A DNA stretch of 51,744 bases from Xylaria sp. FL1777 (lineage: Eukaryota > Ascomycota > Sordariomycetes > Xylariales > Xylariaceae), in contig MU400765.1 in assembly GCA_022578965.1 (NCBI GenBank), forward strand, positions 1 through 51,744, written 5' to 3'. The translations under genes and the position numbers were made by a program. Of the stretch, positions 105 through 49,133 are shown piece after piece (position 1 is the first letter of the stretch; the number at the start of each line of letters is the position of its first letter). The notes under the pieces are model-generated. The model was not told where the DNA came from, did not search any database, and saw only the letters and a program-made list of their open reading frames with translations.

Positions 105-2054
105 TATTATTATAGCTAGAAGCTTTTTTGCTTTTTTTTGCAACTAGCTAGATTTATAAAGACACTTGTGCGGCTTTAAGAACTAAACTTACAGAAACCT
201 ATTATATATAAAATAAACCCGTATAAGTAACAGCTTAAAAAAGGATAAAGGTAAAAATAAAAAAAGCAAAAAACTATAATGCAACTTTTTTAATATAAAA
301 CTAGCTATAATTAGCTAACGGTGCAAACTTAAACTAGCAGTAGCTAGTAATAAGCTTAACGTTAAATTTGCAGTACTATATAAACAAGCTAAATAAAGCA
401 ATAATAAACGCTAAGATTTTTTTTAAAGAAAACTTAAATAAGCAAACTATTTATAATGCTTGCTAAGTTGTTAAAAAGCTATTAAAAGCGTATTACTTTT
501 AACAAATAAGCAAGCAGCTATAAGCAAATAGCAATATTAAAAGTAGCAAGCATACTAATTAAAACTTGTTATAAACGTTATTAATAAAGCAAAAAAAGCT
601 TACTATAAAAGTAAAATTGCTATATGTGCAAATTTAGCAATTTAAGAATTATATAAGCAAATAAACTAAAGTTAACAACTTTTTTTACTAATAGTTTATG
701 TTTTATGTAAATATGCTATAAGTAAATAATAATAAAAAATTTTTATATGTTGTTTTGCTAATTTATTTTAAAGCTATTATAGCAATAAACTTTAATTAAG
801 CTATTATTATAACTTTTGTTAGCTATAAAACTAAAGTAAAAACAAGGTTAATTATAATATAAAAGCTAAACTAAGCAATAAAAGCAAATGTAGTTTAAGC
901 AGTATATAAACTACTAAATAATAACTAAAAGGTTATTTTTAATAAGCAGAAAATTTAAACCTAAATGCTAGCAAATATGTTATAAGCTTGTTAAGCGTTT
1001 AATAAAAAATTAAAAGTGCACTTTTAATTATACTAGCTAGTAATTTTAAGCTTGCTAATTAAGCAAGTGCTAAAAATAAAAAAAAATAAAAATGCTAGCT
1101 TAACTTAAGCTAGCTAATTAAAAGCTAAAGATTAAAAAGCTGTTTTTTTTACTTTGTTTATTATAGCGCAAGTAAAAAACATGCTTAGTATACATTAAGG
1201 TTATAACTGCAAAAAATGCAAATATAACATATATTAATAGATTTTTTTAGAACTATTATTATTTTTAAATAGCTTTTTACTTTATGAATATAATAATAAC
1301 TTAATGCTATAGCTGCTAAAAATAAAGCTATTAAGCTAGCATATGCAAAAATAAATAAAAATATAACTAGTGTAAATCTTTAAAATATGCTAGAAATAAA
1401 GCAAACTTATGCTTTATATAAACCGAAAAAAAAGCAGCTATATGCTTTTTTTGTTAAAGCAACTACTTAGCTTAAGCAATAAAATGCTTAAAAGCTATTT
1501 AAACGTATAAGCTAGCTAAAAACGCTTTTATTTATTACTTTATGTAGTTTGCAATAAAACTAACTTTAAGCTAACTATATATTATTACTGTTATAAAAAC
1601 GCTACGTAAGCAAAAAGCTAATAATTTAGCAAGCAAAAATACTATTTGCTTAAAAGGTTGCTTACTAGAAAAAACTGTACTAATAACTATGCAAAAAACA
1701 AGATTGCGGACTATTATTAATATATTAAAGCTTTAAGACTAGCTTAAAAAAAACCTGTTTAAGGATTATTAGTAAGCGGTTTAAATAATAAAAGGCTATA
1801 CTTATGCAGTAAACAAAAACGCAAGCAGCAAAAGCAATAGTATTAAATAAAAATTAAGCAACGCAGTTTTTAAACAGTAGCGCTTATATAATTAGCTATA
1901 AAAAAAATATAAGTTATAATAGCAAGTAGTTAGCAAAAATGTTTTTATTTAGCTTTAGCACAGTTTTTACTTATATATAAAATTAGGTAGCTTTTAGCAT
2001 AGCTTTTTAAAGCTGTTAAACTTAAGTAATACAATATATTATTATAGCTAGAAG
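105..2054. mobile_element. Possible decayed LINE-like insertion flanked by 18-bp direct repeats
   Basis: The 18-mer TATTATTATAGCTAGAAG occurs at 105-122 and again, identical, at 2037-2054. The roughly 1.9 kb between the copies has more G/C than the sequence to its right. Directly inside the left repeat are T-runs (CTTTTTTGC, then TTTTTTTT). A minus-strand non-LTR retrotransposon with its poly-A end on the left would look like this, with the 18-mer as target-site duplication. No coding remnant could be read, and the local vocabulary is low in complexity, so a chance or inherited repeat remains possible. Confidence 0.3.
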
Positions 2055-23122: not shown

Positions 23123-24625
23123 TCAGAAGACCTTGGAGGAAGAATGCGCAATTCTCTTCCCTACCAAGGTGCCATTGCCCAGATCCCGTTCCGTGTATAC
23201 AGAGAGAACGTCGGTGCTGTTGTCGTAATCGACGCCGCACCGCTCTGAGAAGCCCTGGAACGCATCGACGCGGTCTTGGATATATCGCTCGAAGCCGCCC
23301 CTCGAGCAGCTAGTCCCGGGACCGTCAGCGCAGTCTGGTAAAGGCTGCGGCGCGCCATTGACCAGCACGCGGTAGTATTCGCCATCGTCATACCCGTAAG
23401 TGCCCTTGCAGCTCAGTCTCTCGATAGCCAGGTTGCCCAGGAATGGCAGCACGTGGGAGCTCTTCCACGCGCGACCGTGGTTGATTCGATCAAGCGGCAT
23501 CGTATCGTTGATCGCAGATGCACTGCCCCCGAAAGCCGAGTTGTTGAACAGTCCCATAGCAACAGCGACCATGGGCGGCAATTCGCGGTGCGTGAAGCTC
23601 ACGTACATGTCCTCGCTGCTGTTATCGCTCAAGAGGAGGCCAGCCGTGGCGTTGAGCCAAGGCAGCCCGACAAATCCAGTCACTTGGTTTCCGTAGCCGA
23701 CGTTGTAGTGGTACTGGATATCCGCCGTGTACTCCCACCCAAGCCAATCGTCGGGCGAGAAGAGATCCAGGTCGCAGAAGGGTGAGCTCCCTCGGATCAC
23801 GGACTCATAACCGCAGAGTTCCATCATACCATAGACATCATTCGAGGTGAAGTTGAAGTCGGGCGCCAATGCATTCAGTCTGGCCGTTATTGGCGCTGTG
23901 AACTTCTCAAGGTACACATTTGACTGATCGCTACCTGCGGAGGACGAATATGCCGGACAGCTCTGATACGGTGTCAGAGTGTTGGCGCCGGCCTTTTCGG
24001 ATTCATAGATGCTGATGACACGGATCTCGTTATCGTCCGTCTCAAGCCCTCGCACAAGGGACTGGGCAGATTTATACGTGCGCTCAGCAGACGACGTCCA
24101 GACACGGGTCGGAAGCCTCAGGTTTGGGTACCGGAACGATAGCGTAGCCCCAAGCTGTGCAGCTTCAACTTTGCCCGCGCGCGTTAGGAGCTCTTGCTCG
24201 GCTTCTGTGATGGGGCCTGTCCAGCCAGACAGGAAATTCAACGTCGGGATCTTAGCCCAGTCAACTCCTCCTGTGTGATTCTCCAATTTGGTGATGAAGG
24301 GTTCGATGTACTCCTCGTAATCGAAGTCATTAGCGTAGATTGCCGCATGCCGGTTGAGATACGCTACTCGCACTGGTGTACAGCCTTGTGGTGTTGAAGG
24401 AGATGTGGGCGGATCTTGTGGTTCAAAGTAGGGTGCAACTCCGCCTAAGTGTTCAAGAGGGTTGAATTTATAGGTTGAATAGAGTAACGTCGCCGAACAG
24501 GTCTGAGCTACAGCGAATAAAAGCCCCGTCTGAAGCCACTGGGGCGAGTAGTAAAGACTCGTAGAAGGCATCGTACTTGTTCCTTTCATTGGCTCTAACC
24601 ACGATGAAATGCTTTGACAACCCAC
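23123..24625 (-). CDS. Secreted histidine-acid-phosphatase-like protein (branch 2 histidine phosphatase)
   Basis: This single-exon frame encodes 500 aa. The first ATG gives a longer N-terminus; an internal Met at residue 19 (genomic 24571) places the hydrophobic stretch of residues 29-48 nearer the start, as a signal peptide or anchor, and may be the true start. The histidine phosphatase fold is suggested by R92-H93 in NRHAAIYAND, by S178/S179 and R182 in SSAERTYKSAQSLVRG, and by THRE at 345-348 followed by MGLFNNS. The usual RHGxRxP is altered: Gly is Ala and the second Arg is missing. The usual HD is H346-R-E348, which resembles the HAE of inositol-polyphosphate phosphatases. Several N-x-S/T sites and paired cysteines suggest an extracellular or vacuolar protein. 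Phosphate release from phytate or other esters is the family role; the substrate here is unknown. Confidence 0.85.
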   Translation of the reverse strand: MGCQSISSWLEPMKGTSTMPSTSLYYSPQWLQTGLLFAVAQTCSATLLYSTYKFNPLEHLGGVAPYFEPQDPPTSPSTPQGCTPVRVAYLNRHAAIYANDFDYEEYIEPFITKLENHTGGVDWAKIPTLNFLSGWTGPITEAEQELLTRAGKVEAAQLGATLSFRYPNLRLPTRVWTSSAERTYKSAQSLVRGLETDDNEIRVISIYESEKAGANTLTPYQSCPAYSSSAGSDQSNVYLEKFTAPITARLNALAPDFNFTSNDVYGMMELCGYESVIRGSSPFCDLDLFSPDDWLGWEYTADIQYHYNVGYGNQVTGFVGLPWLNATAGLLLSDNSSEDMYVSFTHRELPPMVAVAMGLFNNSAFGGSASAINDTMPLDRINHGRAWKSSHVLPFLGNLAIERLSCKGTYGYDDGEYYRVLVNGAPQPLPDCADGPGTSCSRGGFERYIQDRVDAFQGFSERCGVDYDNSTDVLSVYTERDLGNGTLVGKRIAHSSSKVF

Positions 24626-25290: not shown

Positions 25291-27309
25291 ATGAGGTTAG
25301 AACATATTCTCCTCCTCGCAGCCTTCGGGCACCAGTCCGCCACGGCCGGATCTCTTCCAACCCCGAGGCTCAAACCTCGAGACAAACCCGCCCTACCAGA
25401 CCGGAAACCCTTTGGCTTCGGCGCCGCAGCGACGGGCGGGGGAGTAGCTCACGAAAACAACACGTACGTGGTGGACAACATGATGGATCTGCGAACGGTT
25501 CGTATGTGCACACTGGAGTCATTTTCTTCCCTTTCTGGTAACCTGAGTACTTCCAATATGTCGTAGGAGCATGCATCAGGGGCATAATATTCACTCAAAA
25601 GAGTAACTACTGACTCCAGCAAGCATAGTGAAGATGGACGAACCGCGAATAGTGTATGTGAAGGGCGAGATCCAGGGGAATCAGATCAATGAGACGTTCT
25701 GTGGGGATTGCCAATACTATATCGATTCGAGCAATGTGCCGGAATTCAACTTCACTCTCTACATTATGGCACTCAACGCTACCTACACGGACGCCGTTAA
25801 GGCGGCTGTGGCTGCGAACCAGACGTTCGAAGGCCGGAATGCAACGGAGTATTTGGAGTTACTGAACCATCAAAATGTGTGCCTTTCTCTTTCGACCATG
25901 TCGGGAGCTGACATAACGTGTACCGTATTTACTTACCAACATCGTGAAGCTATAATTAACATCTGTGGTGACACCAGGGATGGCGCGGCATAGCACAAAA
26001 CGTCCAGAAATCGTGGGAGTCAATCGATGCTCAAGGGAACCTGACTCTGATCGGAATGGATGTGAGTAAATGAATGAATCTTTTTCTTCCTTCTGCTACG
26101 TAGATATCATATTAGAAGCCACCATTCCTACTACTTGGCACTCCAACTTGATTCGTAACCCTGAATATACGCGCGGGTGTCGCGTAGAAAGGAGAAATCC
26201 CCAGTTAACTCCATCATCTAGTCTACAGCATATCTCCATGGTGTATCCTTAGTTTTCAACAGCCGCAGTAACATAATAATGCGAAATCTCCGCATATCCT
26301 CACCACGGGACTGCTTCCCTGCGCCAGAAACGTACCCATCGAGCTGGAACGCGCGATACGACGCTGTATCCTTCGTGACGACGACAACGGCCTGGCTAGA
26401 CGGAAACGTATTCTCCGATAGCACAGCCGGCGCGGTCGCGCCCGATGAGTTTCTCTGGGGATGGGAGGTGGACCATTACGACGGGCTCTTCGACGTCGAG
26501 GACGGCTCGGACGCTATCACCTTCAGCCACAACGTCGTCGCGAACCACCATAAGAGTCTTCTATGGGGCGGCGGCGAGAAGGAGGGATCTCGCGACATGG
26601 GCAAGATGCGTTTCACCGTCTTCGGGAACCGGTTCGCGAATTCCTCGAGCCGGAACCCCCTCATGCGCTTCGGAACCTTCTACATCGCCAACAACGTCTT
26701 CTCGAACTACGAGAACAATCCCCCCTTGTACTCGTCCTCTGACGAAAAATCTAGCTCGTATTCTCCGGAGCCGCGGACGAAAGGCGATATTTCCAGAGTC
26801 GAAGATAATGCTCCCTACATGCCCGATTTCCAATATAACTTAGGCATATACAACCTGTAAAGCAATCCCCATTCCCGATCAACCAGAAGGATTATACAAA
26901 TCCACTGACCAGACGTCGCACACGTAGATCATCAGTTCTAGTCTCAGGGAATTACTTCGACCAAACAGGCGCCTATCCGGACGATGCCACTCGCATCTTC
27001 ACGTTCTCGGACCTCGCGACGCCGGATCAGCCCGCGAGGTTCTGCTCACCGCCCGACGCATCGTCCTTAGATGCGGGACAGCTCAGCTCACTCGCGCAGC
27101 CACAGAGCAGTCTGAACGGGGGAATGGTCAACCTGACGGCCAACGTATTGCAGACCTTCGCGTACTATCTTAGCGAAAAGATGGATTCTGTCGACGGTGG
27201 GCTTGTGGCAGACTGCGCTAAGTTTGAGGGGCAGGATATGCCAATCAGGTTCAACACGGCGGAGGAGGTGCTTGAATACGTGCTCGGGAACGCGGGACAA
27301 GTTGATTGA
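25291..27309 (+). CDS. Secreted pectate lyase, polysaccharide lyase family 1
   Basis: I reconstruct five exons: 25291-25501, 25620-25876, 25978-26065, 26229-26856 and 26928-27309, giving 521 aa with phases that join throughout. The N-terminus MRLEHILLLAAFGHQSATAG is a clear signal peptide, followed by the FGFGAAATGGG start of the lyase fold. PL1 hallmarks are AWLDGNVFSD, DGLFDVEDGSD, ANHHKSLLWGG and RNPLMR at about residues 327-332, which fits the RxPxxR motif holding the catalytic Arg. The enzyme should cleave de-esterified pectin by beta-elimination outside the cell; pectin lyase activity cannot be excluded. Intron 1 is an introner-like element (see separate entry). Intron 2 has a weak GTGTGC donor and is the least certain junction. 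Introns 3 and 4 restore TYLHGVSLVFNSRSN and GIYNLSSVLVSGNYF, which support them strongly. Confidence 0.9.
25502..25619 (+). mobile_element. Introner-like element (ILE) copy 1: intron 1 of the pectate lyase
   Basis: This 118-bp intron begins GTATGT and ends CTGACTCCAG. Splicing joins codon C|CA (Pro71) and restores the frame ...DLRTV-P-SIVKMDEPRIVYVKG. It is 105/118 identical to the intron at 48838-48955 (minus strand) in an unrelated gene, with no gap. Ten of the 13 differences are transitions. A perfect 9-bp inverted repeat, CTGGAGTCA at 25513-25521 and TGACTCCAG at 25611-25619, spans nearly the whole intron and would pair in the RNA. The flanking exon bases share nothing with those of copy 2, so the repeat unit is exactly the intron. 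A TAAC branch-point candidate lies in GAGTAACTAC just before the right arm. Confidence 0.9.
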
Positions 27310-48267: not shown

Positions 48268-49133
48268 TTACGACAGGGCCGGGCTCGAGCTAGGCTTGCG
48301 AGCCGGAACAAAGACCCTCGCCTTTCGCTCGAAGCTCATTTGGGCACCGGCGGCCGCGAGAGTGATCAACTCAATGGGGATGAGGATCACGGACAAGTAC
48401 AGAGCGGTCTGGCTCTGCTTGCACAGAGTACCAAAGTGCGGTTCTAGTTTCATGTTGATATAACCCCACTGACAGCTCCAACTCTGCAGGGTATCAGCCG
48501 TGGTGGAAGTGTTGACGGCGTAGAAGAAAGCGATGCCGATCAAAGCAGCAGCGAACCCAACGAAGGGCGCAATGAATGTTATCGAGGTGTGTACGAGTGT
48601 ATGGTTTTGAAGCTGAAAGAGAACAAACACGTTAACACACGAACTTAGGAGGTACAGCTAGAGCAGTGAAACTTACCACTTTGGCTTTGCTAAATATGAG
48701 GGAAGCAAGATTCGCAAGTATTATGATTGAACTTCCTACAACTAGAGCCACAGTAGGGCGAAGGTCGAACTCATCTGGCCACAGGGCCAGGTTGAAGGCA
48801 CTCGCCACATGGGTGTTGTTATATACCACTATTATCGCTGGAGTCAGTAATTACTCTTTTAGGCGAATATTATGCCCCTGATGCATGCTCCCGAGACATG
48901 TTGGGAGTCATCAGGTTACTAGAAAGGGAAGAAAATGACTCCAGTGTGTACATACTGAGGGAATTGGCAGATGTCCCGAGGATGGTAATGCCACTGACAA
49001 GGGCGAGACCAGTGAGGCCGATACGAACGCTGTTAAGGAGACGAATAGTTCCCTGGTGTCGTTGGTAAGTGACATCTCGAGGATCTACCTCGAAGGTCGA
49101 AGGAGATGCCGGCCCCTTTTCTTCGAAAGACAT
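48268..49133 (-). CDS. Small four-pass membrane protein, function unknown
   Basis: Three exons (49133-48956, 48837-48677, 48612-48268) give 227 aa with consistent phases. Four hydrophobic segments lie at about 33-56, 86-108, 122-146 and 182-203. The loop between TM3 and TM4 holds two cysteines (about 160 and 177), and both ends are polar. The layout resembles small MARVEL-like or fungal-specific integral membrane proteins, but I recognise no named family. Intron 1 (48838-48955) is the second copy of the introner-like element; removing it joins SANSLS to TIIVVYNNTH. Intron 2 (48613-48676) is an ordinary 64-bp intron with GTAAGT and TTTCAG. The gene lies about 0.7 kb from the right AT-rich block. 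Confidence 0.8.
48838..48955 (-). mobile_element. Introner-like element (ILE) copy 2: intron 1 of the membrane-protein gene
   Basis: On the minus strand this 118-bp intron begins GTATGTACACACTGGAGTCA and ends TACTGACTCCAG. It is the same length as the pectate-lyase intron and 105/118 identical, including the perfect 9-bp inverted repeat. It falls after the first base of a codon (A|CG, Thr60), the same phase as in copy 1. The exon bases on either side differ completely from those at copy 1. Read through without splicing, both genes meet a stop or lose the frame. Confidence 0.9.

Follow-up and report, generated by a model that had tools for sequence, protein, structure and literature searches.

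The first introns of a pectate lyase gene and a membrane protein gene of Xylaria sp. FL1777 belong to a family of about 96 introners, which occupy coding sites of the type Y[A/C]^TGR (^ marks the point of insertion) without detectable duplication. We put the probability at a little under 60% that this family, including the two predicted 127-nt introns in the window (the whole stretch of 51,744 nt analysed here, contig C260 in our search), spread by a reverse-splicing type of insertion of intron RNA into transcribed genes.

A predicted 127-nt intron in two unrelated genes

Copy 1 of the element lies at 25502-25628 (+) and forms intron 1 of the gene for a pectate lyase of polysaccharide lyase family 1. 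Meanwhile, copy 2 lies at 48829-48955 (-) and forms intron 1 of the gene for a small membrane protein. Both are 127 nt long and in phase 1, with the termini GTATGT...CATAG in copy 1 and GTATGT...AATAG in copy 2, the latter splitting a Met codon (A^TG). Compared base by base, they are identical at 111 of 127 positions. The sequence-only reading had described a shared intron of 118 nt, with homology running from the donor GT to the AG at 25619. Its ungapped match between 25502-25619 (+) and 48838-48955 (-), at 105 of 118 positions (89%), was reproduced, as was the start of the homology at the donor GT, but its end was misplaced. Conserved sequence continues for nine bases 3' of CTCCAG, as C-G-A-N-N-ATAG, and is then followed mostly by TG, so that the intron measures 127 nt. 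The two copies are much more alike than chance would allow: with the same query, no fewer than 40 places among 96 first-look candidates in the 58.7-Mb genome score.

Because the two candidate 3' splice sites differ by 9 nt, both preserve the frame, and frame alone cannot decide between them. Splicing at the upstream AG would give an in-frame stop after two codons in 10 phase-0 copies. When the pectate lyase is spliced at 127 nt, each of the 52 aligned relatives (111 listed) runs through the junction ungapped, and the three extra residues of the 118-nt product occur in none of these 52. The membrane protein spliced at 127 nt is letter-for-letter identical to the deposited Xylaria sp. FL1777 protein P0232. 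Its junction holds one residue, Met in 43 cases, in all 120 listed proteins (189 found; P0232 included), compared with four residues in the 118-nt product. The junction was also free of gaps in six of six further genes tried against solved structures, namely those of an acetoacetate-CoA ligase, two short-chain dehydrogenases, a dihydroxy-acid dehydratase, a dihydrodipicolinate-synthase-like protein, and a carboxylic ester hydrolase. The 118-nt intron was rejected on account of the phase-0 stops and of the relatives of both genes, which contradict its product, and its length was corrected to 127 nt. The 127-nt segments are predicted introns, whose splicing is deduced from homology and from gene models, the deposited model P0232 giving indirect support.

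In the gene models, exon 1 of the pectate lyase spans 25291-25501 (+), with the ATG of MRLEHILL as predicted start. The membrane protein gene spans 48268-49133 (-) and encodes 224 aa in three exons (49133-48956, 48828-48677, and 48612-48268), its product being the one identical to P0232. No FL1777-named protein occurred among the 111 listed relatives of the pectate lyase (25291-27100), although a deposited protein exists for the membrane protein gene on that contig; the pectate lyase gene may be unannotated in the deposit, or altered further on. The nearest relatives of an acid phosphatase gene at 23123-24625 are from Ustulina deusta (88%) and Xylaria. The host belongs to the Xylariaceae, in the order Xylariales of the Sordariomycetes.

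A family of about 96 copies

We searched the genome (58.7 Mb in 588 contigs) by sequence and by end patterns, which provided the genome-wide copy count that the sequence-only reading had proposed: about 96 similar introns in unrelated genes. These comprise 89 copies that were read and seven unread one-ended matches (C225:64627, C211:11103, C14:478344, C165:86405, C3:366675, C21:473136, and C67:156885). The two end words of the family are GTATGTGCACACTGGAGTCA (5') and TGACTCCAGCGAGCATAGTG (3'). Allowing up to three mismatches, the 3'-end pattern TGACTCCAGCGAGCATAGT had 97 matches in the genome against 5 for the reversed control, and the 5'-end pattern had 86 against 0. Paired at a distance of 106-136 nt, the patterns yielded 81 pairs, and a further eight one-ended matches were altered copies, giving the 89 distinct copies read. 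Six 3'-pattern matches lacking the family body (L114 and L116-L120) were read and then excluded, and L053 and L037 were counted with an older relative described below. Alignment A2 holds 75 of the 89 copies; L080, L088, L111, and L113 were left out for their length, and L047, L058, L082, L092, L098, L102, L107, L115, L124, and L128 for odd indels or brevity.

The median divergence of the 75 aligned copies from their consensus is 6.3%. Three pairs of copies from different genes are distinguished by one base, and other such pairs by two; near-identical pairs of this kind represent recent copying. The family body and similar ends (GTAAGC...CTATAG) recur in an older relative of about 158 nt. It was found at nine places by DNA search, query included, and its 3' pattern had 24 matches with up to three mismatches against 0 in the control. 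This pattern contains TG and is therefore uninformative on the insertion site of that relative. Members of this more diverged subfamily were seen in L088 at 1216-1372 (+), in L053, in L037, in L002 (-), and in L016. The 127-nt form may be a derivative of the ~158-nt subfamily that was shortened and took over.

Locus L016 carries three family members on one strand (+): a 127-nt copy at 1501-1627, a diverged copy at about 1646-1780, 20-30 nt downstream of the first, and a 158-nt relative at 2406-2567. Several other copies are altered at their ends. In L010 (1500-1626, +), the donor GT is mutated to AT, and an in-frame GTAATA three bases upstream may serve as a substitute donor. The same stretch after GTA is deleted in L113 and L111, which turns the donor into GTAAGTCAT and removes the 5' arm of the inverted repeat; this is either a single shared event or the same deletion occurring twice. 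L047 (1405-1525, -) has lost six bases upstream of the acceptor, and its end still reads TAG followed by TG. Finally, the long C run of L058 (1-80, the start of contig C207) is probably an assembly-end artefact.

Placement in coding frames

All 89 copies read are crossed by an open frame on the strand of the element, taken for each copy as the best of three frames. In 82 of the 89, no stop occurs within 20 codons to either side, or within as much flank as was fetched, while seven copies (L011, L012, L013, L017, L026, L047, and L054) have only 8-18 open codons on one side; the flank used in this test was only about 70 nt in 13 copies. An open score of at least 70 was reached by 73 of the 76 copies with 180 nt of flank, compared with 30% of random window positions, and by the antisense frames in 63% of 52 at the same loci. 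Codon use favours the sense strand and frame of the element in 83 of 89 copies, and the codon score is not positive in the assigned frame in 13 of 89. The codon table behind these scores was built from the same loci, with leave-one-out in the strand test and without it in the phase check.

Among the 89 copies read, none was recognised outside an open sense frame, be it intergenic or antisense, as judged without a full genome annotation. The sequence-only reading had named a family lying mainly outside genes, with no tie to splice sites, as the outcome that would speak against introner-like elements; what we find is 89 of 89 copies in open frames. Its introner interpretation gains support from the ~96 copies, from their placement in open sense frames, and from intron-free equivalent sites in tandem repeats.

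Insertion site and phase

The exon flanks of the two window copies had been described as unrelated. This holds beyond the immediate junction, but around the junction the flanks share a strict motif, Y[A/C]^TGR. In copy 1 (+), the site consists of TC (25500-25501) and TGA (25629-25631), and in copy 2 (-), of CA (48956-48957) and TGG (48826-48828). Across the family, position +1 is T in 87 of 89 copies, +2 is G in 76, and +3 is A or G in 75. On the other side, -1 holds A in 58 copies, C in 21 (together 79 of 89), and G in only 5, and -2 is C or T in 78. Relative to the codon-position background, positions -2, -1, +1, +2, and +3 carry 0.41, 0.64, 1.80, 1.23, and 0.27 bits of information, respectively. 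Among 22 predicted ordinary introns taken as a control, 4 had T at +1 and 12 had G at -1. A full match to YMTGR was found at 53 of 89 sites, exact CA^TG at 32, and A^TG at 51, and a Met codon is split in 40. The donor reads GTATGT in 79 of 89 copies, and the final five bases are CATAG, AATAG, or TATAG in 83.

The distribution over phases 1, 0, and 2 is 69, 18, and 2 copies (a first assignment had been 65/19/5, from which the codon-use check moved four copies). At the full YMTGR sites, the counts of 43/9/1 compare with 26.6/9.6/16.8 expected from the YMTGR words of the flanking exons (p about 4e-6). The near-absence of phase 2 (2/89) exceeds what the site word accounts for.

Seamless insertion and empty equivalent sites

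Comparison of the left and right flanks of 48 copies at many offsets revealed no covariation and no target-site duplication. A TPR gene (L065) contains four tandem repeats with TGAA..CCTTGC at the same place, and only the second of these holds the introner; the three unoccupied repeats read through as CA^TGA, CA^TGA, and TA^TGA. If these three stand for the empty site, they show that insertion neither duplicated nor removed a base. In L101, a paralogue of the encoded protein (51% identical) is open across the junction. The related genes L101 and L122 carry copies about two codons apart, a near-parallel gain. In the genes compared, which are a subset of the 89, insertion left the exon bases intact, with none lost, gained, or duplicated.

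We considered CA...TG as part of the element and rejected it, because the unoccupied repeats of L065 already hold CA or TA together with TG, and because relatives often carry the fitting residue, such as Met in 43 of the 120 listed copy-2 proteins. A search for a larger partner element found no paired ends more than 136 nt apart within 1,000 nt.

Inverted repeat, branch point, and folding

The family has the inverted repeat mentioned in the sequence-only reading. The repeat is 9 bp long; 11 nt separate it from the 5' terminus of the intron, and 9 nt from the 3' terminus. In copy 1 (+), the 5' arm CTGGAGTCA occupies 25513-25521 and the 3' arm TGACTCCAG occupies 25611-25619, ending at the AG formerly taken as the acceptor. 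The same arms lie at 48936-48944 and 48838-48846 in copy 2 (-). Of 75 copies, 46 form all nine pairs of the repeat and 68 form at least eight, and UAUG and CAUA are able to pair outside it. The predicted branch-point element ACTGAC is located at 25609-25614 (+), with its A at 25613, 15 nt upstream of the final intron base, and all 89 copies have a CTRAY word within 30 nt of their 3' end. The branch-point consensus RYURAY is that given in the consulted portion of PMC12403724.

Both window copies fold better than their shuffled versions (z of -2.34 and -2.39). Covariation in the stem did not rise above shuffles, with 91.5% of pairs formed compared with 91.6% after shuffling, and any double change was seen at 4 of 25 pairs. 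The RNAalifold consensus fold also differs from the near-terminal stem. With covariation at the level of shuffles and a different consensus fold, selection on the stem finds no support.

How the family may have spread

According to the interpretation we favour, excised intron RNA would be inserted at the target word in the transcribed coding strand, and the inserted RNA would then be copied into DNA. The predicted near-terminal stem, formed by CUGGAGUCA with UGACUCCAG, could bring both ends together. We favour an RNA route because the ends of the element fall exactly at the splice sites, the copies are placed on the coding strand, there is no duplication, and there is no visible partner. The main tension for this route is the sharp target word; its strict T at +1 is not predicted by reverse splicing in the published accounts as far as their consulted text goes. 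The palindromic core CA^TG combined with an inverted repeat, as in a DNA transposon, also counts against it. The base at -1 is more often common to near relatives than to distant ones (0.79 compared with 0.50, p 0.0025), as might be seen if some flank travelled with the copy. Further points against are the stem covariation at shuffle level, the seven short open frames, the high antisense scores, and the 13 copies whose codon score is not positive.

A stronger version of the RNA route treats the spliceosomal intron as a site-specific mobile element, and we offer it only tentatively. Its RNA would be guided to YA^TGR in expressed coding strands, mostly splitting Met codons, and would retro-insert without a scar. 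This would be a nuclear counterpart of group II retrohoming, in which the word is read by intron and spliceosome and not by a transposase.

The main rival is a DNA enzyme that cuts bluntly at CA^TG-like words. The family would then be a non-autonomous DNA transposon with sub-terminal inverted repeats, inserted bluntly in the middle of the word, whose ends happen to be splice sites, so that coding copies survive. We regard this as unlikely, although it would account for the 9-bp inverted repeat near both ends and for a sharply defined site with a palindromic core (CATG) in 32 of 89 copies, and terminal inverted repeats are reported for 72 of 177 surveyed introner families in the consulted text of PMC9860276. 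Such an element would be expected to leave intergenic and antisense copies, yet no copy among the 89 read was recognised outside an open sense frame. Neither the 48 copies nor the L065 repeats revealed a target-site duplication, and no larger partner was apparent, since ends sought up to 1,000 nt apart paired at no more than 136 nt. The site is also asymmetric in strength, with T at +1 in 87 of 89 but A at -1 in 58 of 89.

Less probable again is that the introns are filler from break repair. Following the proposal of Fekete and co-workers for Xylariales stwintrons, excised self-complementary intron RNA would be ligated in where genes have suffered double-strand breaks, and would then be converted to DNA. 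The same fungal order, the near-terminal inverted repeat, and the seamless insertion agree with this model. However, it gives random sites, and the part of PMC12403724 consulted reports no nucleotide bias, whereas here +1 is T in 87 of 89 copies and the phases are uneven (69/18/2).

Copying between genes by template switching or microhomology, in which the intron moves with a few flanking bases and YA...TGR is the shared microhomology, appears highly improbable. Near relatives do share the -1 base (at the frequencies given above) and, more weakly, -7 and -2, but no sharing was found at the other flank positions tested from -8 to +8, and the shared stretch would be only 2-5 bases. Ordinary introns that are alike through gene duplication or chance would suit L101 and L122, two members of one gene family hit two codons apart, but can practically be dismissed, as the ~96 copies evidently lie in different genes and their flanks have nothing in common but the motif.

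Why the family matters

How new introns arise is a long-standing question, and the introners of ascomycetes stand out as not fitting the DNA-transposon account in the consulted text of PMC9860276. The FL1777 family offers about 96 copies of graded age, together with occupied and unoccupied equivalent sites in a single gene. Its target word is sharp enough for building an insertion assay, and spread as intron RNA, the reading we prefer, would allow a direct test of intron origin. The nearly invariant T at +1 and the surplus of phase-1 copies are constraints to be accounted for by any model, be it reverse splicing, break filling, or DNA transposition.

Comparison with known systems

Among the papers found on introners in fungi, Xylaria, Kretzschmaria deusta, and FL1777, none describes the FL1777 family, judging by its title and the opening of its abstract; supplementary tables, such as those of Gozashti et al., may list it. 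The closest parallel in taxonomic terms is provided by the [D1,2] sister stwintrons of Xylariales, which come from the same order, in a study from 2025 that covers the same family, Xylariaceae (PMC12403724, consulted in part). According to these portions of the text, stwintrons are likewise repeated introns that appear at new sites, seamlessly and without target-site duplication, and have inverted repeats near both termini, with the 3' arm before the acceptor. The 14 taxa named there do not include FL1777. Stwintrons are nested double introns starting with 5'-GGT or 5'-GGC in the passages seen, whereas each FL1777 copy is one single intron, preceded by G in only 5 of 89 cases. Neither site nor phase bias is reported for stwintrons in the sections consulted of PMC12403724 and PMC8469720, and the FL1777 family has both. 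The stwintron repeat GUAUAAAAAC (NTIRE-10 type) is absent from the FL1777 family consensus, where the repeat is CUGGAGUCA. The extra G before an internal GT or GC donor, which is a stwintron trait, was not found, and removing one intron restores the FL1777 protein frame. A genome search for the stwintron donor word gave 0 exact and 13 one-mismatch cases among 619 matches, with 132 in the reversed control, and was too noisy to be informative.

Introner-like elements of Dothideomycetes, reportedly the subject of work by van der Burgt in 2012 and Torriani in 2011, belong to a fungal class other than that of the FL1777 family. The likeness is considerable in the parts of PMC4457414 consulted: near-identical introns in unrelated genes, subfamilies of different age, and parallel gains. 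These elements prefer AG/GY sites, as cited in the consulted text of PMC8469720, in contrast to the Y[A/C]^TGR of the FL1777 family, where 5 of 89 copies have G at -1 and 87 have T at +1. The AG/GY preference does not amount to a strict criterion.

Helitrons insert between A and T without duplication, and their ends are 5' TC...3' CTRR. The insertion of the FL1777 family at A^T resembles this mode. The family differs from Helitrons in ending with GT...ATAG, and no strong hairpin was seen just before its 3' end.

DNA-transposon introners, which Huff is said to have described in 2016, invite a comparison on several traits. An inverted repeat of at least 6 nt near the ends, which is one of these traits, is present in the FL1777 family. 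In the consulted text of PMC9860276, these introners are short, non-autonomous, intron-creating elements that carry an inverted repeat, as here. They are flanked by 3-9 bp duplications, from which a splice site is often recruited; no such duplications were found in our family, whose GT and AG both lie inside the conserved element. The same source, in the part available, treats ascomycete introners as an outlier without target-site duplications and terminal inverted repeats, and the FL1777 family, unlike these, has an inverted repeat. Set against the portions of the literature compared, the FL1777 family is a fungal-type introner family whose target specificity differs from that of the fungal families described.
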